From Sphingomonas changbaiensis NBRC 104936 (GTDB lineage: Bacteria > Pseudomonadota > Alphaproteobacteria > Sphingomonadales > Sphingomonadaceae): DNA of 64,000 nucleotides. The translations under genes were made by a program, and so were the position numbers. The stretch's first letter is position 1. Each line of letters begins with the position of its first letter. Positions 28,418 through 60,144 of the stretch are shown in pieces. The stretch is from contig NZ_BBWU01000045.1 in NCBI RefSeq assembly GCF_000974765.1, positions 1 to 64,000 on the forward strand, written 5' to 3'. Under the pieces are notes generated by a model, which was not told the origin of the DNA, did no database searches, and saw nothing but the letters and a program-made list of their open reading frames with translations.

Positions 28418-28592
28418 GTGCTACTCCCGGTCGCACCATCGCATGGTACGCGCGTTGGTTCCGTGCCGCTGTGCTGGACGGCACAGGGTCAGGACAAGGC
28501 TAATAGGTGGTTAATCGGGCGGCGGCGCCACATTGCCCGCGGCCGCCCCCGCGGTTAAGGGGCGGAAGCCCTGTCCGAGCGAGCGCGAATTG

Positions 28593-29144
28593 ATGGTGGC
28601 CGATTCAGGGCTCAAACAGCTGCTGTTCGAGATGCGGGCGCCGCTCATGCGGATGCTGGCGGCGCGCGGCGCGACGTCCGACGAAGCCGAGGATCTGTTG
28701 CAGGAGCTGTTCGTCCGCCTAGAGACGCAAGCGATCGGGCCGGTCGGCGAGCCGCGCGCCTATCTCTACCGGATGGCGGACAATCTGTTCCTCGACCGGC
28801 GGCGCGCGGAAACGCGGCGTTCGGCGCGCGAGCAGCGCTGGGGCGAACAGGAGAGCGAGCCGCGGCCGACGCCTGAGCGCGAGCTGCAGGGACGTGAGCG
28901 GCTGGCGATGGTCTCGGCAGCACTTGCCGCCCTGCCCGAACGGACGGTCGATATCTTCCGCCGCTTCCGCCTCGACGGCGACTCGCAGCGGCTGATCGCC
29001 GGCGACCTCGGCATCAGCCTCAGCGCCGTCGAAAAGCATCTCCAGCGCGCCTACCGGACCGTGACCGACATTCGCGCCCGGCTGGATGCGGAAATCGAGG
29101 CGCCGCGGCGTCCTTCGTGCGATGACGGCCAGGATGACAGCTGA
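28593..29144 (+). CDS. FecI-type ECF sigma factor
   Basis: A 183-residue extracytoplasmic-function sigma factor of the FecI kind. Region 2 is at about 20-80 (DEAEDLLQELFVRLETQ, YLYRMADNLFLDRRRA) and region 4 near 115-165 (LAALPERTVDIFRRFRLDG, GDLGISLSAVEKHLQRAYR, a clear helix-turn-helix). It is followed immediately by a FecR anti-sigma and an STN-TonB receptor, so it should drive that receptor operon when ligand is sensed. I take the ATG at 28593; a start 20 codons earlier (28533) is open but has a poor N-terminus. Confidence 0.88.
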   Translation: MVADSGLKQLLFEMRAPLMRMLAARGATSDEAEDLLQELFVRLETQAIGPVGEPRAYLYRMADNLFLDRRRAETRRSAREQRWGEQESEPRPTPERELQGRERLAMVSAALAALPERTVDIFRRFRLDGDSQRLIAGDLGISLSAVEKHLQRAYRTVTDIRARLDAEIEAPRRPSCDDGQDDS

Positions 29145-30078
29145 GGAGAGCATCAGGGCGCAGGCAATCGCCTGGCGCGTCCGGCTGGCCGATGGCGACG
29201 CCGCGGCCTGGGAGAGCTTTGTCGCCTGGCTTGAGCTCTCGCCCGATCACGCGCACGCCTACGACCTCGTTGCGCTCGGCGAAGGCGATGCGGTGCGCGC
29301 GCTTGCGGTGCCCGCGACGGTTCCTGTGGCCGCCAATGACGAGGGACCGCGGCCGGCGCGCCGGCTGTGGATGGGGATCGGCGGGGCTGCTGCGGCCGTC
29401 ATGCTTGCGATCGTCGGCGCGCCGATGCTCCAGTCCGGCGCCTATGCGGTCGAGACCGGTCCGGGCGAGCAGCGGCAGATAGCGCTGGCGGACGGCACCC
29501 GCATCACCCTGAACGGCGGCACTCGGATCGAGCTCGACCGCTCCCGCCCGCGGCTGGCCCGACTGGATTCCGGCGAGGCCCATTTCGCAGTGGTCCATGA
29601 CGCCGGGTCGCCGTTCCGCGTGAAGCTCGGCGACGCGGTGGTGCAGGATGTGGGCACGACGTTCGACCTCGTGCGCGACGATGCCGGAAACCGGGTCGAG
29701 GTTGCCGAAGGCGCCGTTCGCTATAATCCGGATCGCGAGAATGTCTCGCTGACCGCGGGCCAGACATTGGTCGATCCCGCCGGTGACGATCCTTTGCGCG
29801 TGGGCCAGCGCCGCCCGTCCGCCATCGGCAGCTGGACCAGCGGCCGGCTCAGCTACGACCAGGAGCCGCTGGAGCGCGTCGCGGCCGAGCTGTCGCGCAC
29901 GATCGGTGTTTCGATCGCTGTCGCCCCCGAAGTCGCGGCGCGCAGCTTCTCCGGAACGATCCGGATCGGTCATGACCGCGCCCGGGTCGTGGAGCGTGCG
30001 GCGGCCTTGCTCGGCCTGGCGGCGCGGCGCACAGCGACAGGATGGATATTCGAATCCCGTCTGCGTGAGACTCGCTGA
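29122..30078 (+). CDS. FecR-type anti-sigma factor
   Basis: A 318-residue inner-membrane regulator. The N-terminal domain (about 1-70, with WESFVAWLELSPDHAHAYD) binds the sigma factor, one transmembrane helix lies near residues 85-110 (LWMGIGGAAAAVMLAIVGAPML), and the periplasmic part holds the FecR domain (TGPGEQRQIALADGTRITLNGGTRIELD, GEAHFAV, PFRVKLGDAVVQDVGTTFDL) and a C-terminal STN-like region. It contacts the receptor's signalling domain. The start is uncertain (29122 or 29134); either overlaps the sigma gene. The stop overlaps the receptor gene by 14 bases. Confidence 0.88.
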   Translation: MTARMTAEESIRAQAIAWRVRLADGDAAAWESFVAWLELSPDHAHAYDLVALGEGDAVRALAVPATVPVAANDEGPRPARRLWMGIGGAAAAVMLAIVGAPMLQSGAYAVETGPGEQRQIALADGTRITLNGGTRIELDRSRPRLARLDSGEAHFAVVHDAGSPFRVKLGDAVVQDVGTTFDLVRDDAGNRVEVAEGAVRYNPDRENVSLTAGQTLVDPAGDDPLRVGQRRPSAIGSWTSGRLSYDQEPLERVAAELSRTIGVSIAVAPEVAARSFSGTIRIGHDRARVVERAAALLGLAARRTATGWIFESRLRETR

Positions 30079-32404
30079 CCTGCTCTTGTTGACGGCGGGC
30101 ACATGCGTCTGCGCCGGTGCTGCGAACGCGGCCGAGCCGCGTGCGTTCGATATCGACTCGGGGCGGCTGAGCGGCGCGCTCGTTCATTTCGGCGAGCAGG
30201 CGGGCGTGTCGGTGGGCCTGACCGACGCCCGGCTGGCGCGCCGGCATACGCGCGGCGTCCAGGGCCGGATGAGCAGCGAAGTCGCGCTCCAGCATCTCCT
30301 TGCCGGCACCGGCGCGACCTATCGGTTCGTCGATGCAGAAACGGTGCGCATCGTCGCTGCGCCGTCCCGGCACGCAACGGCCTTCCGGACCTCCGTGCCA
30401 GCTTCGTCCGACGATGCGCCGGAACCCGACATCGTCGTCGCCGCGAGCAAGCAGGCGCTTCCGCTGGCGCAATTCCCCGGCTCAGTCGTCCGCATCGCGC
30501 TGGATCTGGACCAGGCCGGACGCGCCACGTCTGCCGGCACGCAGGTGCTGGTCGACGGCCTGCCGACACTCGCCTCGACCCATCTTGGTCCGGGCCGGGA
30601 CAAATTATTCGTGCGGGGGATTGCCGACAGCAGCTTCAACGGGCCGACGCCGGCGACCGTCGCGCAATATTTCGGCGATGTGCGCCTCAATTACGCGGCG
30701 CCCGATCCCGATCTCAATCTGTACGATATGGCCAGCGCCGAAGTGCTCGAAGGCCCGCAGGGGACGCTCTACGGCAGCGCCGCCCTGGGCGGCATCGTGC
30801 GCCTGGTGCCCAATGTTCCAAAGCTTGGGCAGGCGCAAGGCTCGGCGGTGGTCGGGCTCTCCGATACCGCGCATGGCGAGTCCGGTGGAGATGCCGCCGC
30901 GATGCTCAACCTGCCGTTGAGCTCGGACCTGGCGATGCGGGTCGTCGGCTATGGCGCGCGCGATCCCGGCTATATCGACGATATCGGCCGCGGGTTGAAC
31001 GACGTGAACCGGACGACCAGCTATGGCGGGCGGATCGCGTTCCGCTTTGCACCCCATGATGGCCTGACGATCGATGCTGGTGCAGTGCTTCAGAATCTGG
31101 CCAGTCGCGACGGCCAATATGCCGAACGCGGCCTGCCGCCGCTCACCCGCCGATCCGCCATCGCGCAGCCGTTCGATAATGACTATCGCCTTGGATATCT
31201 GAGCATCTCGACGGACGTCCGCGGGGCTTCGCTGACGTCTTCGACCGGAATCGTCCGGCACGACCTCGAAACCGTGTTCGATGCCACGCCGCGGTTCGGA
31301 ACGCCGGCCGCCTATACCGAGGATCTGCGGATCACCCTCCTGACCCACGAGACCCGGATATCGGGCGGCGACGCGCGCGGCTTCAACTGGCTCGCGGGCC
31401 TGAGCGCACTTCACAACGAGACGCGGTCGGCGCGCAAGATCGGTCCCGATGACACAGCCGTTCCGCTGCTCGGCGTTCGCAACGACAATAATGAAATCGC
31501 GCTGTTCGGGCAGGCCTCGATCCCGCTGCTCGATGACGTCATCCTGACCGCCGGCGCGCGCGTCAATTATGATGAAGCGAGCGGGCAGGTGATCGGCGAA
31601 ACTGTTCCCAAGCGGTCGGAGCCCAAGCGCCGCAATCTGCGCTGGCTGCCGATGGCGGCGATCGCGTGGCGGCCGAGCGCGCGCTGGCTGGTCTTTGCCC
31701 ATTATCAGGAAGGCTTCCGCCCCGGTGGACTGTCGATCACCGGGCGGATGACCGCGGACAAATTCGTGTCCGACTCGATCTCCACGATCGAGGCGGGCTT
31801 CCGGTTCGGCGACAGCGGCATCGATCGCTTCGCCGCCGCAGTCACTGTGTCGGGTGCCCGCTGGGACAGCATCCAGGCCGACCTGATCCGTCCCAACGGC
31901 CTGCCCTTCACCAGCAACATCGGCGACGGGCATGTGCTTGGCCTGGAAGGGCAGGTCGACTGGCGGCCCACCGACGCGCTCGGCCTTCAGGCCGGGTTGT
32001 TTCTCAACACCTCGTCGCTCGATGATCCCGCCCCGCCCTTTGTCGCCGCGGACGAGCGGGAGTTGCCGAATGTCGCCGAAGCCGGCGGCCGCATCGGCAT
32101 TTCCTATCGCCGCCAGCTCCGGCGTGGCCTCGCGCTTAATGCGGGAGGATCGCTCCGCTATGTCGGCCGCTCCTCGCTCGGCATCGGCGCGCCGATCGAC
32201 GTGCGCCAGGGCGGCTATGCGGAAGCGGCGTTGAACGCGCGGGTCGGCAGCGACCGGGTGGGCGTGTCACTCTCCGTCACCAATCTAACCGACGTGCGCG
32301 GCAACCGCTTTGCCTTTGGTGATCCGTTCGCGATCGCGGCGCGCAACCAGATCACGCCGCTTCGCCCCCGCACCATCAGGATCGCAGTCGATGGCCGGTT
32401 CTGA
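30065..32404 (+). CDS. TonB-dependent receptor with N-terminal STN signalling domain
   Basis: A 779-residue outer-membrane transducer. Signal peptide (LADLLLLTAGTCVCAGAANA), STN domain at about residues 26-100 (FDIDSGRLSGALVHFGEQAGVSV), TonB box EPDIVVAASK near 122-131, a plug domain (VLVDGLPTL, LEGPQGTLYGSAALGGIVRLV near 230-250), then a 22-strand barrel ending LRPRTIRIAVDGRF. With the sigma factor and FecR before it this is a FecIRA-like surface-signalling set. The ligand is unknown: iron chelates are usual, but the downstream genes suggest a glycan or lipid-linked substrate. GTG start at 30065 inside the FecR end. Confidence 0.9.
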   Translation: MRLADLLLLTAGTCVCAGAANAAEPRAFDIDSGRLSGALVHFGEQAGVSVGLTDARLARRHTRGVQGRMSSEVALQHLLAGTGATYRFVDAETVRIVAAPSRHATAFRTSVPASSDDAPEPDIVVAASKQALPLAQFPGSVVRIALDLDQAGRATSAGTQVLVDGLPTLASTHLGPGRDKLFVRGIADSSFNGPTPATVAQYFGDVRLNYAAPDPDLNLYDMASAEVLEGPQGTLYGSAALGGIVRLVPNVPKLGQAQGSAVVGLSDTAHGESGGDAAAMLNLPLSSDLAMRVVGYGARDPGYIDDIGRGLNDVNRTTSYGGRIAFRFAPHDGLTIDAGAVLQNLASRDGQYAERGLPPLTRRSAIAQPFDNDYRLGYLSISTDVRGASLTSSTGIVRHDLETVFDATPRFGTPAAYTEDLRITLLTHETRISGGDARGFNWLAGLSALHNETRSARKIGPDDTAVPLLGVRNDNNEIALFGQASIPLLDDVILTAGARVNYDEASGQVIGETVPKRSEPKRRNLRWLPMAAIAWRPSARWLVFAHYQEGFRPGGLSITGRMTADKFVSDSISTIEAGFRFGDSGIDRFAAAVTVSGARWDSIQADLIRPNGLPFTSNIGDGHVLGLEGQVDWRPTDALGLQAGLFLNTSSLDDPAPPFVAADERELPNVAEAGGRIGISYRRQLRRGLALNAGGSLRYVGRSSLGIGAPIDVRQGGYAEAALNARVGSDRVGVSLSVTNLTDVRGNRFAFGDPFAIAARNQITPLRPRTIRIAVDGRF

Positions 32405-33143
32405 CAGGCTGCTGCTCGCCTCGATCCACGACGTCGGGCCGCGCTTCGAGCGCGAGGTGGACACGCTCGCAGCCGCGATCGAGCGGGCGACCGGCAGCAC
32501 GCGCTTTGCAATGCTGGTCGTGCCGGATCACTGGGATTCGGCGCCGATCGCGCGTGACCCGGCCTTTCAACGGCGCCTTCGGGGCTGGTCCGATGCGGGG
32601 ATCGAGATGTTCCTTCATGGGTGGCGCCACCGCGACGACCAGCCGACCGGCTTCAAGGCGCGCCACCTGACTGCAGGCGAGGGCGAGTTCCTGCACCTGG
32701 ACGAGGCCGAGGCCGCGCGCCGCATGGTCGAAGGCCGCAAGCTGGTTGAGGACGTGATCGGTCGGCCGGTTGCCGGCTTCGTCGCCCCGGCCTGGCTCTA
32801 CGGCCCCGGCGCCCGTGCAGCCCTAAACGAGCTGCGTTTTCTCTTGGCGGAAGACCATTTTCGTGTGTGGCAACCCACCGACGGCGCGGTTCTCGCGCGC
32901 GGCCCGGTGATCAGCTGGGCCAGCCGCAGCCGGGCGCGAATCGCCAGCTCGCTGCTGTTCGCCGGCGTCGCGCGCAGCGTGCTCGCCCCGCAGCGGGTGG
33001 TCCGTATCGCCCTGCACCCCGGCGACACCGGCGTCCCCTCGCTGATGGCGAGCATCGATCGCACGCTCCGCCACTTCGCGCGCACGCACCGGCCGGCCGG
33101 CTATGCCGATCTGGTGCGGGAAAGAGACATGGGCGCCGTCTAG
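32391..33143 (+). CDS. DUF2334-type polysaccharide deacetylase-like protein
   Basis: A 250-residue protein of the DUF2334 branch of the polysaccharide deacetylase (NodB) fold. Seen: LLLASIHDVGPRFEREV at the start with the metal Asp (HD), MLVVPDHWDSAPI, FLHGWRHRDD with the paired His, and FVAPAWLYG. Such proteins probably deacetylate envelope carbohydrate, though few have been tested. There is no signal peptide. It overlaps the receptor gene by 14 bases and so belongs to its transcript. Confidence 0.82.
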   Translation: MAGSDRLLLASIHDVGPRFEREVDTLAAAIERATGSTRFAMLVVPDHWDSAPIARDPAFQRRLRGWSDAGIEMFLHGWRHRDDQPTGFKARHLTAGEGEFLHLDEAEAARRMVEGRKLVEDVIGRPVAGFVAPAWLYGPGARAALNELRFLLAEDHFRVWQPTDGAVLARGPVISWASRSRARIASSLLFAGVARSVLAPQRVVRIALHPGDTGVPSLMASIDRTLRHFARTHRPAGYADLVRERDMGAV

Positions 33144-33209
33144 CATGCCGCGCAGTGCGGGTCCTGGACGTCCGCGGCGTCTTAGGCCTGACAACAAGCG
33201 AGGGCCTGC

Positions 33210-34151
33210 GTGTATTTCCCCGAAGCGACAGTTCCAGCCCCGGCCCAGTTCATCGAATTGGGCGGGGCGGAACGCTCCGGTCCGCTCGATCGGCTCAAGG
33301 CCAGCGGCCCGATCGCCTGGATCGGCGCCGCGATCACCCTGGGCGTGCTTTGTGCCGTTCTGTGGCAATTGCGGACGCTGCACATCCGGCAAATCCTCGA
33401 GGACATTCCGAGGACGCCTGTCTTCTGGATGCTGTTCGGCGCTTATTACGTCACCGCGCCGCTGGCGGATTGGATCATCTTCCGCAGGCTCTGGCGCATC
33501 CCCGCGGCCGGCTTCGCGGCACTGACCCGCAAGCTGATCGGCAACGAGCTGCTGCTCGGCTATTCGGGCGAGCTGCATTTCTATAGCTGGGCGCGGTCGC
33601 GGACCGACCTGCCGGGCGCCCCGTTCGGCGCGATCAAGGACGTCGCGATCCTTTCCGCCGTCGTCGGCAACGTGACGACGCTTGCGATGCTGGCCTTCGC
33701 CTATCCTGCGTTCGTGTCGCTCAATCTGGGCATGCGGGGCGGCACCTTCGCCTTGTCCGTCGGCATCATCCTGTTGTCGTCGCTCGCCCCGATGCTGTTC
33801 CGGCGCAGGCTGTTCGGCCTCGCCAGAGCCGACCTGCTGTTCATCTCTGCCGTCCATTTCGCCCGGATCGTCACGATGACCACGCTCGCCGCATTGATGT
33901 GGCATGTGGTGCTGCCCGGCCAGCCGGTAGGGCTCTGGCTGCTGCTGGCGACGATGCGGCTGCTGATCTCGCGCCTGCCGCTGCTGCCGAACAAGGACCT
34001 GGTCTTTGCCGGCATCGCCGTCCTGATGATGGGCCATGATGTCGAGATCGGCACCATGATGACGATGATCGCGACCCTGATTTTGACCACGCATTTGACC
34101 GTCGGCGCGGCGCTGGTCGGGTCGGAAATCGCGAGCTGGGGTCGGCGGTGA
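33210..34151 (+). CDS. Polytopic membrane protein of unknown function
   Basis: A 313-residue inner-membrane protein with about seven hydrophobic segments (WIGAAITLGVLCAVLW, FWMLFGAYYVTAPLADWIIF, AILSAVVGNVTTLAMLAFAY, LSVGIILLSSLAPMLF, VGLWLLLATMRLLI, LVFAGIAVLMMG and MTMIATLILTTHLTVGAAL). It has the general shape of the lysylphosphatidylglycerol-synthase TM or flippase-like families, but I cannot place it. GTG start at 33210; its stop overlaps the DUF2141 gene (GTGA). Position between the deacetylase and glycosyltransferase hints at lipid-linked glycan transport. Confidence 0.75.
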   Translation: MYFPEATVPAPAQFIELGGAERSGPLDRLKASGPIAWIGAAITLGVLCAVLWQLRTLHIRQILEDIPRTPVFWMLFGAYYVTAPLADWIIFRRLWRIPAAGFAALTRKLIGNELLLGYSGELHFYSWARSRTDLPGAPFGAIKDVAILSAVVGNVTTLAMLAFAYPAFVSLNLGMRGGTFALSVGIILLSSLAPMLFRRRLFGLARADLLFISAVHFARIVTMTTLAALMWHVVLPGQPVGLWLLLATMRLLISRLPLLPNKDLVFAGIAVLMMGHDVEIGTMMTMIATLILTTHLTVGAALVGSEIASWGRR

Positions 34152-34663
34152 TTGCCGCTGTCGCACTCGCTGTCGCTGCGCTGCCGTCATCGCGACCGGA
34201 TCTCGGCGTCGCGGAGGGACACTGCCGGCACGACGAACCCGGCCCTGCATTCCTGGTCGATGTGGTTGGGCTGAAGGACCGCAAGGGCCTGATCCGGCTC
34301 GAGCTCTATCCGGCAAATGACGAGGACTTCCTGGCCGACGACAATGCGCTGGTCGCGGCCGGGAAGACGTTCCGCCGCGTCGAGCGGCTGGTGCCGCAAA
34401 CCGGGCCGGTCGAGTTGTGCATTCGCGCGCCCGCCCCCGGCGTCTACGCGCTGTCGCTGCTCCACGATCGCGACGGCAACCGCAAATTCAGCTTCCTGAG
34501 CGACGGAGTCGGTTTTCCCGGCGATCCGCAGCTTGGCTTCCGCAAGCCGCACGCGGCCGCGGCCAGCGCCGAAGTCGGCACCGGCGTCCGCCGCCTCAGC
34601 GTGCGGATGAACTATCGCCGCGGCCTGTTCTCGTTCGGCCCGATCACGGGCGTCCGGCGATGA
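34148..34663 (+). CDS. DUF2141 domain exported protein
   Basis: A 171-residue protein with a short signal-like N-terminus (IAAVALAVAALPSSRP) and one DUF2141 domain: GLIRLELYPANDEDF, ELCIRAPAPGVYALSLLHDRDGNRKF, then DGVGFPGDP. DUF2141 proteins are small periplasmic or extracellular beta-sandwiches of unknown role, often beside sugar-related genes. GTG start at 34148 overlaps the previous stop by four bases; the stop overlaps the glycosyltransferase start (ATGA). Confidence 0.82.
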   Translation: MIAAVALAVAALPSSRPDLGVAEGHCRHDEPGPAFLVDVVGLKDRKGLIRLELYPANDEDFLADDNALVAAGKTFRRVERLVPQTGPVELCIRAPAPGVYALSLLHDRDGNRKFSFLSDGVGFPGDPQLGFRKPHAAAASAEVGTGVRRLSVRMNYRRGLFSFGPITGVRR

Positions 34664-35814
34664 AGATCGTCGACGTCTGCGCCTTCTACGCGCCCAAGGG
34701 CGGCGGCGTGCGGACCTATATCGACCGCAAGCTCGCCGCCGCACCCTCCTTCGGCCATGAGCTCACGGTGATCGCGCCGGGCCCGTGTGACCGGGTCGAG
34801 CAGCGCGGCCCCGGTGCGTCGATCCGCTGGATCGCGGCACCCGCTTTTCCGCTCGACCGCAACTATCGCTATTTCGGCCATCCGGTTGCGCTGCACGACG
34901 CGCTCGATGCGGAGCGGCCCGACATGGTCGAGGTCTCCTCGCCCTGGCGCAGCGCCGCTACCGTTGCCGGATGGCGCGGGCGGGCGCCGCGTTCGCTGGT
35001 CATGCATGCCGATCCGCTGTCGGCCTATGCCTATCGCTGGTTCGAGCCGGTCGCTTCGCGCGCGACGATCGACCGCCACTTCGGCTGGTTCTGGCGCCAT
35101 CTGCGGCGGCTCGACGAAAGCTATGCCCAGGTGGTCAGCGCGAGCGGGGAGCTGTCGCGGCGGTTGCGCGACGGCGGCCTTCAGAATGTCGTGACGATCC
35201 CGATGGGCGTAGATCCGGGGATTTTCTCGCCCGGCCTGCGCGATGAAGGGCTGCGTGCCTCGCTGCTTGCCGATTGCGGTCTTGGCGCCGATGGGCTGCT
35301 GCTGCTCGGCGTCGGACGGCTGGCGCCCGAGAAGCGCTGGCCGATGATCGTCGAAGCGGCGGCCGCGGCCGGCAGCCATGCCCCGGTGGCGCTGTTGCTG
35401 GTCGGCGCGGGGCGGGAGCGCGCGCGTATCGTCCGGCAGATCGGCGGCAATCCGCATATCCGGCTTGCCGGCCCGGTCGGTGATCGCGCGGCGCTGGCGC
35501 GGCTGATGGCGAGCGCCGACGCGCTGGTGCATGGCTGCGAGGCGGAAACCTTCTGCATGGTGGCCGCCGAAGCGAAGGCGTCGGGCCTGAACTTAATCGT
35601 CCCCGATCAGGGCGGCGCATCGGATCAGGCGTGCGGTCCCGGCGACGTCCGCTTCCGCGCCGGCTCCGCCGCGGACGCCGCCGCCGCAATCGTGCGCTTT
35701 GCCCTCAGCCCGCCGGCCGCGGCGTTGACGCACCGCCCGCGCGAGATGGACGATCATTTCCGGGAACTGTTCGACAGCTATCGCGCCATCGTTGCCGAAA
35801 GGTGTGCGGCGTGA
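34660..35814 (+). CDS. Glycosyltransferase, GT4-like
   Basis: A 384-residue GT-B fold glycosyltransferase. N-terminal acceptor domain starts KIVDVCAFYAPKGGGVRTYIDRK (the glycine loop), and the C-terminal donor domain shows LLLGVGRLAPEKRWPMIVEAA near 215-235, VALLLVGAGRER, IRLAGPVGDRAALARLMASADALVHGCEAETFCMVAAEA with the E-x7-E motif (E297 region). It probably adds a sugar to a lipid carrier or envelope glycan; the donor and acceptor are unknown. Last large gene of the overlapping run that starts with the sigma factor at 28593. Confidence 0.85.
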   Translation: MKIVDVCAFYAPKGGGVRTYIDRKLAAAPSFGHELTVIAPGPCDRVEQRGPGASIRWIAAPAFPLDRNYRYFGHPVALHDALDAERPDMVEVSSPWRSAATVAGWRGRAPRSLVMHADPLSAYAYRWFEPVASRATIDRHFGWFWRHLRRLDESYAQVVSASGELSRRLRDGGLQNVVTIPMGVDPGIFSPGLRDEGLRASLLADCGLGADGLLLLGVGRLAPEKRWPMIVEAAAAAGSHAPVALLLVGAGRERARIVRQIGGNPHIRLAGPVGDRAALARLMASADALVHGCEAETFCMVAAEAKASGLNLIVPDQGGASDQACGPGDVRFRAGSAADAAAAIVRFALSPPAAALTHRPREMDDHFRELFDSYRAIVAERCAA

Positions 35815-35969
35815 TCCTCGAAGAACTGAGCAAGCCCCTGGCTCCCGTCGCCGAACCGCCGGCTTTGCGCCGGCTCCGCCCTGCCAGGCGACGCAACCAG
35901 CTCGATTGCGGCTGCCTCGCCGCGATTGCGCGCCTGATGATCTGGGCCACCCGCGGCAACGGCCGCTGA
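35811..35969 (+). CDS. Possible 52-aa coupled small protein
   Basis: A GTG at 35811 overlaps the glycosyltransferase stop (GTGA) and opens 52 codons: MILEELSKPLAPVAEPPALR, then an Arg-rich stretch, a Cys-Gly-Cys (LDCGCLAAIARLMIWA) hydrophobic segment and a short end. No ribosome-binding site of its own; translation would rely on coupling. The hydrophobic piece could be a membrane anchor. No family is recognised and it may be fortuitous. Confidence 0.35.
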   Translation: MILEELSKPLAPVAEPPALRRLRPARRRNQLDCGCLAAIARLMIWATRGNGR

Positions 35970-59026: not shown

Positions 59027-60144
59027 CGCTCCAGCAGCGCACGATAGGCCTGGAGCACGCTTTCGGATGCCGCGTCCCAGCTATAGGCCTCGCTTGCGGC
59101 GCGTGCGGCATCGCCCATGCGTCTGCGCCGGTCCGGATCGCCGACCAGCATCGCGACCGCATCGGCATAGGCTCCGGGATCGCGCGGTGGGCAGAGCAGG
59201 CCGGTGCGGCCATTGTCGAGCAGCGCGCGTGCGCTCGGCGCATCGGCGCTGACGACCGGCAGGCCCGAAGCCATCGCCTCCAGCACGACATTGCCGAACG
59301 TCTCGGTCGTGCTCGGCGTCAGCATCAGGTCGGCGCTCGCGACCGCGCGGGCCAGCGCTTCGTTCTGCAAATGGCCGGTCAGCACCGCGCCCGGCAGGGC
59401 GGCTAGCACATGCTCGGCAGGGCCCGCGCCCACCACGAGCGGCCGAACGTCCAGTCCGCGATCCTGCAGCGCGCGCAGCGCCGACGCATAGATCTCGACG
59501 CCCTTTTCCAGCACCACTCGGCCGAAGAACAGCACCGCTACTTGCCCGTCGCCGATACCGTGCTTGCGCCGCCAGTCCCGGCTGCGCTGCCGGGGATGGA
59601 ACAGGTCGCTATCGATGCCACGGCTCCAGACGCTGGCGCGACCGTCGCCACGGACGCGCTTCATGTCGTCGACCAACCCCGGCGTCGGCGCCAGCACATG
59701 ATCGCTGCGGCGATAGAAACGGCGCAGATGTGCCTCGACCAGCGGCCGCGCCCAGCCGAGGCGGTAGTAATCGAGATACGTCTCGAACAAGGTGTGCAGG
59801 CTGGCGACGACCGGCACGCCCAGCCGCTTCGCGAAGGTCTGCGCGCGCGTATCGAGAATGTCGGGCGTCGAGACGTGGACGATATCGGGCGCGAATCGCT
59901 CGATATCGGCCCGGATGTGGCGCGGCAGGCCAAGCGCCAGACGAAACTCGCCGCGCACCGGCAGCCGGATCGACGGCACCGGCACCAACGTTCCCGCGGG
60001 TTCGAACGCCGGCGTGTCCGTCACCGGCGAATAGACCCGAACCGCCTGCCCTTGCGTCTCCAGATAGCGCACCAGCTGGTTCAGCGCCTGGTTCGCGCCT
60101 TCCTTCAGATAGTTGTAGTTGCCGGAAAACAGCGCGATCCGCAT
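59014..60144 (-). CDS. Glycosyltransferase, GT4-like (MgtA/PimB type)
   Basis: A 376-residue GT-B enzyme: RIALFSGNYNYLKEGANQALNQLVRYLE opening, donor domain with LFFGRVVLEKGVEIYASAL near 220-240, LVVGAGPAEHVLAALPGAVLTG, and E-x7-E in STTETFGNVVLEAMASGLPVVSAD near 300-322. Such enzymes often add mannose or glucuronate to diacylglycerol or phosphatidylinositol. The upstream GtrA-type gene overlaps by one base (TGATG). Converges with the FNT gene, overlapping its 3' end by 13 bases. Confidence 0.87.
   Translation of the reverse strand: MRIALFSGNYNYLKEGANQALNQLVRYLETQGQAVRVYSPVTDTPAFEPAGTLVPVPSIRLPVRGEFRLALGLPRHIRADIERFAPDIVHVSTPDILDTRAQTFAKRLGVPVVASLHTLFETYLDYYRLGWARPLVEAHLRRFYRRSDHVLAPTPGLVDDMKRVRGDGRASVWSRGIDSDLFHPRQRSRDWRRKHGIGDGQVAVLFFGRVVLEKGVEIYASALRALQDRGLDVRPLVVGAGPAEHVLAALPGAVLTGHLQNEALARAVASADLMLTPSTTETFGNVVLEAMASGLPVVSADAPSARALLDNGRTGLLCPPRDPGAYADAVAMLVGDPDRRRRMGDAARAASEAYSWDAASESVLQAYRALLERQIS

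Follow-up and report, generated by a model that had tools for sequence, protein, structure and literature searches.

A FecIRA-type signalling gene set beside a candidate amino-glycolipid module with a predicted MprF-type flippase fold in Sphingomonas changbaiensis

We analysed a 64,000-nucleotide stretch of DNA from Sphingomonas changbaiensis NBRC 104936 (contig NZ_BBWU01000045.1; hereafter the window), which belongs to a genome of 3.2 Mb whose relatives are sphingomonads. Eight open reading frames (ORFs), all on the plus strand according to the ORF list and Pfam, occupy positions 28593–35969 and encode, in this order, a sigma factor, a FecR protein, a TonB-dependent receptor, a DUF2334 deacetylase, a polytopic membrane protein, a DUF2141 protein, a glycosyltransferase of family 4 (GT4), and a protein of 52 residues. 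We hold, with modest confidence, that the first three form a cell-surface-signalling system of the FecIRA type that controls the remaining genes as an amino-glycolipid module. We read this module as a lipid-amination set resembling GpgSDF of Pseudomonas aeruginosa and HexSDF of Clostridioides difficile, with a diverged flippase. The gene content, the related proteins, the fold of the predicted membrane-protein model, and the recurrent linkage of the two gene sets are shown directly, whereas the signalling steps, the sugar, the acceptor, and the effect on the membrane are inferred from them.

The Signalling Genes

The FecI-type sigma factor (28593–29144, 183 amino acids) matches the Pfam models Sigma70_r2 (33.8 bits) and r4_2 (36.4 bits), both above cut-off; in-frame TTG starts are possible at 28590 or further upstream. 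The FecR regulator (29122–30078, 318 amino acids) matches FecR (71.6 bits) and DUF4880 (27.6 bits), likewise above cut-off. An extracytoplasmic function (ECF) sigma factor and a DUF4880-bearing FecR therefore stand side by side, as FecIRA signalling requires, and this FecR is the only DUF4880 match in the whole genome at E 0.001. The receptor (30065–32404, GTG start, 779 amino acids) possesses a TonB barrel (85.8 bits) and a plug (29.0 bits), both above cut-off. A first-pass annotation of the sequence had named it an STN-TonB receptor; Pfam STN reached 13.4 bits, below its cut-off of 28.4, and the probable N-terminal signalling domain rests on the match of residues 8–101 to the NCBIfam FecA model (E 5.8e-8).

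In the ferric citrate system FecIRA of E. coli, the ligand-bound receptor acts on FecR, and the sigma factor is released or activated. The window shares with that system a sigma factor, a FecR protein, and a receptor with a FecA-like N-terminus in the same order, and differs from it in the lipid-module cargo and in having no transporter gene after the set within the string.

The successive genes overlap by 23, 14, 14, 4, 4, and 4 bases (the receptor/DUF2334 overlap being counted from ATG 32391), and the single gap in the string, of 66 bases at 33144–33209, separates DUF2334 from the membrane-protein gene. Because the genes overlap, a single transcript is suggested. The first-pass description of seven genes in one direction, with overlaps of 4–23 bases and one larger gap, agrees with these measurements and with the Pfam domains, the membrane protein having no family; the end that it gave for the string, 35969, also stands, but 35811–35969 is a separate ORF of 52 residues and not part of GT4.

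The Predicted Fold of the Membrane Protein

The membrane protein (33210–34151, GTG start, 313 amino acids) has no Pfam family and no match to LPG_synthase_TM (PF03706), and a set of 41 members (the window protein and 40 relatives) gave single stray Pfam matches only, the best with E 0.023. Four GpgF-type proteins do match PF03706. The AlphaFold2 model, built from the 41-row alignment, has a mean predicted local distance difference test score (pLDDT) of 85.7 and a predicted template modelling score (pTM) of 0.82. When the 1000 top chains from Foldseek were realigned with VIA-align, six MprF structures (9goe, 7duw, 6lvf, 7f47, 9j8s, and 9j8q) came first with Z 14.8–16.5, and the seventh row had Z 5.2; helical proteins may score high in VIA-align, and the six MprF rows nonetheless stand far above the remainder. 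The match extends over 235–249 residues with a root-mean-square deviation of 3.8–4.2, covers MprF residues about 55–345, and has an identity of 11–13%.

The likeness to MprF thus lies in the predicted fold of its N-terminal membrane domain; compared with MprF, the window protein has no synthase domain and falls outside LPG_synthase_TM. On the strength of the model, we take the protein for an MprF-type flippase of diverged sequence that fills the part ascribed to gpgF and hexF, in line with the possible flippase proposed in the first-pass annotation. Eight of ten genomes (G507–G516) hold two or three homologues of this protein each, so the family with the MprF-type fold is wider than the cluster.

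Relatives of the Glycosyltransferase and the Deacetylase

The GT4 glycosyltransferase (34660–35814, 384 amino acids) matches Glycos_transf_1 (52.1 bits) and Glyco_transf_4 (51.0 bits), both over cut-off, and its best NCBIfam model is GpgS, the N-acetylglucosaminyl-phosphatidylglycerol (GlcNAc-PG) synthase (NF053787), with 143.5 bits, short of the curated cut-off of 480. Similarly, the DUF2334 deacetylase (32391–33143, 250 amino acids, with ATG 32391 as the most likely start) matches DUF2334 with 66.5 bits, and its best NCBIfam model is GpgD, the GlcNAc-PG deacetylase (NF053788), with 134 bits, short of the cut-off of 280. The GpgS cut-off was passed in six of 299 genomes of the phylum. The window GT4 is 25–31% identical to these six loci (tblastn), and a DUF2334 relative lies beside GpgS in five of them, with 33–35% identity to the window protein, or 27–29% over the full alignment with three. 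In an alignment of nine sphingomonad and three GpgD-type proteins, the window DUF2334 keeps HD, HGxxH, EGEF, GFxAPAWL, WxxRSxxR, and HPxD. A search of the PDB by sequence gave close relatives of neither GT4 nor DUF2334.

By their sequences, the two enzymes appear to be distant relatives of GpgS and GpgD. Plain orthology of the three proteins to GpgS, GpgD, and GpgF was considered and rejected, given the missed cut-offs, a separate position of GT4 in the glycosyltransferase tree, and the missing PF03706 match.

Comparison with Known Lipid-Amination Systems

The genes gpgS and gpgD of P. aeruginosa are responsible for the synthesis of glucosaminyl-phosphatidylglycerol (GlcN-PG), gpgF is predicted to encode a flippase, and the set has been likened to hexSDF of C. 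difficile (PMC12713373, accessible text). The deacetylase and glycosyltransferase, which the first-pass annotation connected with the synthesis or remodelling of an envelope glycolipid, resemble a pair shown to amino-glycosylate a phospholipid. The window shares with gpgSDF the adjoining genes for GT4, a deacetylase, and a predicted flippase, together with the deacetylase residue set; it differs in that GT4 and DUF2334 lie under the curated cut-offs and the flippase lies outside PF03706/COG0392 by sequence. DUF2141, the second glycosyltransferase of the relatives (see below), and FecIRA are sphingomonad additions, which the accessible portion of PMC12713373 does not mention for gpgSDF.

In the case of C. 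difficile, a glycosyltransferase, a deacetylase, and an MprF-like flippase also stand under a dedicated sensor: expression of HexSDF is governed by the two-component system HexRK, and loss of HexSDF lowers daptomycin and bacitracin resistance (PMC10128005, as far as its accessible text goes). That system differs in its two-component sensor, its Gram-positive host, and its diradylglycerol glycolipid product, and the likeness to it is one of gene content and regulation as described. The first-pass annotation knew of no described system with the content of the window. For the FecIRA combination this still holds, in that searches across titles and abstract openings of the open-access literature, a scope that leaves most subscription journals outside, yielded no paper pairing surface signalling or FecR with DUF2334, DUF2141, or a lipid glycosyltransferase module; the lipid part, however, has counterparts in gpgSDF and hexSDF.

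Recurrent Linkage of FecIRA and the Module

Among 199 genomes of the family, GT4 was found in 50 at E 1e-60 and DUF2334 in 29 at 1e-20, and in all of those 29 except G356 no more than 4 kb separates DUF2334 from GT4 (28 genomes). The surroundings were examined for 45 of the 50 GT4-positive genomes (G306, G408, G410, G467, and G471 were left out, and some contigs are short). A sigma–FecR pair adjoins the module in 12 of the 45, the window included, and the receptor does so too in 11; in L114 (229–2664), the receptor gene is missing, and DUF2334 comes immediately after the sigma-factor and FecR genes. Compared with the 12 cases seen, random placement expects between 0.7 (for a span of 24 kb) and 1.2 (for 40 kb), with a maximum of 7 in 200,000 simulations, under a model that ignores common descent, sets unlisted genomes to zero, and counts DUF4880 matches alone, which are "at least" figures since some FecR proteins may be missed. 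For these reasons, we weigh the gene orders above the placement count. In the genus to which the window belongs, the module is present in four of six genomes, and FecIRA adjoins it in three of the four, the exception being G005 (L035); five loci from other families (L038–L040, L043) or order mates showed no FecIRA.

We also scanned 80 named loci, chosen by GT4 similarity from 308 confirmed relatives. A full sigma–FecR–TonB set lies by the module in 32 of them, and these linked loci comprise eight gene strings with about six basic orders, L163 and L184 just extending the first and third. In the string of 13 loci, DUF2141 and the membrane-protein gene run in reverse and are followed by DUF2334, GT4, sigma, fecR, and tonB in forward direction; ten loci are window-like with an additional glycosyltransferase gene, GT-B; in three loci, the membrane-protein gene, tonB, fecR, and sigma run in reverse ahead of a forward GT4; in two, sigma, fecR, tonB, the membrane-protein gene, DUF2141, GT4, and DUF2334 all run forward; and four strings are singletons, L163 and L184 among them. 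FecIRA accordingly lies upstream and in line in some loci and after GT4 in others; elsewhere it is divergent, the receptor gene then being followed by that of the flippase, and other arrangements also occur. The linked order is found, for example, in Sphingomonas horti and in a Sphingosinicella, and the divergent order in S. mali and S. pruni. In L172, L197, and L198, which were counted as window-like, 1.4–2 kb separates the receptor from DUF2334.

In a receptor tree (39 sequences from linked and 21 from unlinked loci), the label changes 8 times vs 17.4 times in shuffles, and the linked receptors fall into two deep clades, making up 26 of the 27 rows of one and 13 of the 33 rows of the other. 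L201 and L204, which were drawn as unlinked, are second loci in which FecIRA is followed by GT-B, the flippase gene, and DUF2141, and so amount to a split module. Among ten genomes hand-picked from the 48 loci without an adjoining full FecIRA set, FecR lies within ~7 kb of a flippase homologue in three (G515, G516, and G510); only G510 adds a case, because G515 (loci L124 and L204) and G516 (loci L127 and L201) are the two split-module genomes just named. A chance neighbourhood of FecIRA and the module was considered and judged unlikely in view of the recurrence in different gene orders and the placement count. The link is thus unlikely to be chance, and it is not obligatory.

A Probable Scar of a Second Glycosyltransferase

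The 66-base gap at 33144–33209 is where the nearest relative, Sphingomonas horti (L032/L119), and the loci L033–L037 carry GT-B, a gene of ~1.15 kb. In local alignment, the gap scores 65.5 against the last bases of the L032 GT-B gene, compared with 49.5 for the best of 1000 shuffles and just 18.5 for the start of GT-B. In the global alignment, the second half of the gap alone (33170–33196, 21 of 27 bases identical) falls at the GT-B tail, and the remainder is scattered. Elsewhere in the window genome, GT-B has partial matches only, the best with 36% identity and E 9e-10. Since the gap aligns to the GT-B tail and the relatives carry GT-B at this position, the window lineage has most likely lost the gene by deletion and kept part of its 3' tail as a probable scar; loss of a glycosyltransferase gene would also explain why this gap is larger than the other junctions. 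GT-B lies between DUF2334 and the membrane-protein gene in 36 of the 80 named loci and is therefore not a constant member of the module.

Proposed Mechanism and Alternative Explanations

We propose that an external ligand would bind the TonB receptor, whose N-terminal domain would hand the signal to FecR; FecR would then release or activate the sigma factor, as in FecIRA of E. coli, and the sigma factor would drive transcription of the string, starting upstream of the gene that encodes it. GT4 would add an N-acetyl-hexosamine to a membrane lipid, perhaps phosphatidylglycerol by analogy with GpgS, another lipid being possible, and the DUF2334 enzyme would take off the acetyl group. The protein with the MprF-type fold would move the amino-charged lipid across the inner membrane, and the DUF2141 protein and the small ORF may act somehow in the envelope. 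The outcome, by analogy, would be a less negative membrane, which is what the gpgSDF authors expect from GlcN-PG (PMC12713373, accessible text).

Several results weigh against this reading, in addition to the missed GpgS and GpgD cut-offs and the simplifications of the placement model. In the glycosyltransferase tree, which was used solely for this separation since six 'mid'/'para' rows on long branches are probably wrong reading frames, GT4 stands apart from GpgS. A second GT4-type glycosyltransferase in the window (59032–59997, minus strand) scores 173.4 bits with the GpgS model, above the GT4 of the string, and the control genomes of Caulobacter and Synechococcus also give matches below the cut-off; the GpgS model is therefore unspecific at this level, and the label is only a lead. 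Genes resembling the glycosyltransferase at 59032–59997 are also present elsewhere in the family. A profile–profile comparison (hhalign) gave no match between the membrane protein and GpgF, and a Foldseek search of its model against the PDB returned no significant match (best E 0.31). Scans of the string found one promoter pattern vs 0.8 in shuffles and, for terminators, four sites vs 3.8; no shared promoter motif is claimed from 33 collected upstream stretches, 14 of which were inspected by eye.

The same holds for the linkage. In 48 of the 80 named loci, no full FecIRA set lies within the fetched stretch, which includes less than 9 kb of upstream sequence in ten of the 80. Half of the 48 (24) contain a receptor match but neither sigma factor nor FecR, and most of these matches are partial. 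Sphingomonads are rich in TonB-type receptors, so nothing is drawn from these lone matches. The remaining seven of the ten hand-picked genomes have no FecR near a flippase homologue, and in eight hand-picked FecIRA-less loci no common regulator emerges from the first ORF upstream, which in one of them (L162) is a TonB receptor. Furthermore, related FecIRA sets adjoin autotransporters and other genes. The first-pass annotation had asked for conservation of the cluster in other sphingomonads and had taken an unlinked distribution of the later genes as evidence against itself; the FecIRA link does recur, in varied gene orders, and the unlinked distribution is seen in part, in those 48 loci and, within the genus of the window, in G005. 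Its interpretation stands in outline as a partly supported hypothesis, better supported than before.

It could be argued that the two gene sets are neighbours by transcript only, FecIRA being an ordinary uptake system for an iron chelate or another nutrient and the lipid genes being merely co-transcribed. The many modules with no full FecIRA set nearby fit this explanation, and so does the best-scoring NCBIfam model of the receptor, TIGR01783 of the siderophore-receptor subfamily, with 84.6 bits against a missed cut-off of 223.5. However, the link is kept through the ~six basic gene orders, including divergent ones in which GT4 is out of reach of any read-through that starts at the sigma promoter; the linkage also appears in both deep receptor clades and in numbers above random placement. 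We consider this explanation unlikely. A product other than a membrane lipid bearing an amino sugar, such as a decoration of a polysaccharide or sphingolipid glycan that DUF2334 deacetylates, is possible, if somewhat doubtful, and would be compatible with FecIRA control. The distance of GT4 from GpgS, in the tree and far under the cut-off, and the GT-B gene of the 36 loci favour it, as does a GINT1_N protein after FecIRA in L208. Against it, GT4, a GpgD-type DUF2334, and a protein with the MprF-type fold together make up the combination described for GpgSDF and HexSDF, and the GpgD residue set is kept.

A further alternative, which we regard as very unlikely, is that the receptor senses a lipid or lipid-like glycan of the cell itself or of a neighbour, forming a feedback loop on envelope composition. 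The receptor does stay with envelope-lipid genes in many loci, the rest being inference. The full-set receptors share 33–79% identity with the best of three query receptors, whereas GT4 ranges from 55 to 79% in the 80 loci, a comparison that favours GT4 because the loci were chosen by it; receptors that change so fast would better fit foreign ligands that change as well. Under FecIRA control of the lipid module, one may speculate further that TonB signalling in sphingomonads serves as an early warning for membrane charge, in which diverging and exchanged receptors detect foreign molecules (competitor peptides, sideromycins, or plant compounds) and the sigma factor then induces synthesis and flipping of the amino-sugar lipid before these reach the inner membrane; we think it rather unlikely that this version holds in full.

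The closest regulated counterpart, hexSDF, is under a two-component system (PMC10128005, accessible text), and FecIRA control would place the sensor for a lipid head group in the outer membrane. If correct, the proposal would widen the range of functions governed by TonB signalling, would give a function to the DUF2334/DUF2141 gene sets of many sphingomonads, and would add to the MprF-type flippases a sequence-diverged family that sequence searches miss. It suggests that many sphingomonads may sense an outside cue and then alter their membrane charge.

Other Features of the Locus and Its Relatives

A family scan covered ten proteins encoded close to the receptors of nine unlinked loci. An autotransporter of ~1,070–1,100 residues directly follows the receptor in L205 (8334–11555) and L210 (8504–11809), and ORFs of similar length, recognised by length only, occupy this position in several other unlinked loci. 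The GINT1_N protein of L208 (8618–9529, E 1.2e-38; glucosamine inositolphosphorylceramide transferase) lies directly after FecIRA and hints at another case of lipid glycosylation beside such a set. The other neighbours are glycosyltransferases (L206 and L211), a short-chain dehydrogenase (L202), a GGDEF regulator (L203), an AraC regulator (L199), and two proteins without a family.

The DUF2141 protein of the window (34148–34663, GTG start) matches DUF2141 with 60.1 bits and has, by eye, a signal-peptide-like N-terminus. Its model (pLDDT 88.0) is a beta-sandwich with weak and mixed fold matches (Z up to 7.1), and no function is drawn from it. DUF2141 proteins also occur beside crtG in Sphingomonadales, according to the accessible text of PMC5989583. 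The flanks of the string look unrelated, with an AlkB-like minus-strand ORF preceding it and a DEAD-box helicase after it, both labelled by reading the ORFs.

The last ORF of the string (35811–35969, 52 amino acids, no Pfam family) ends in a C-x-C ... W-A-T-R-like motif and is possibly an unannotated small protein. Its C-terminal motif occurs again shortly after GT4 in ~9 relatives among 85 loci searched (weakest E 0.75), including L034, L119, L125, L139, and L141.

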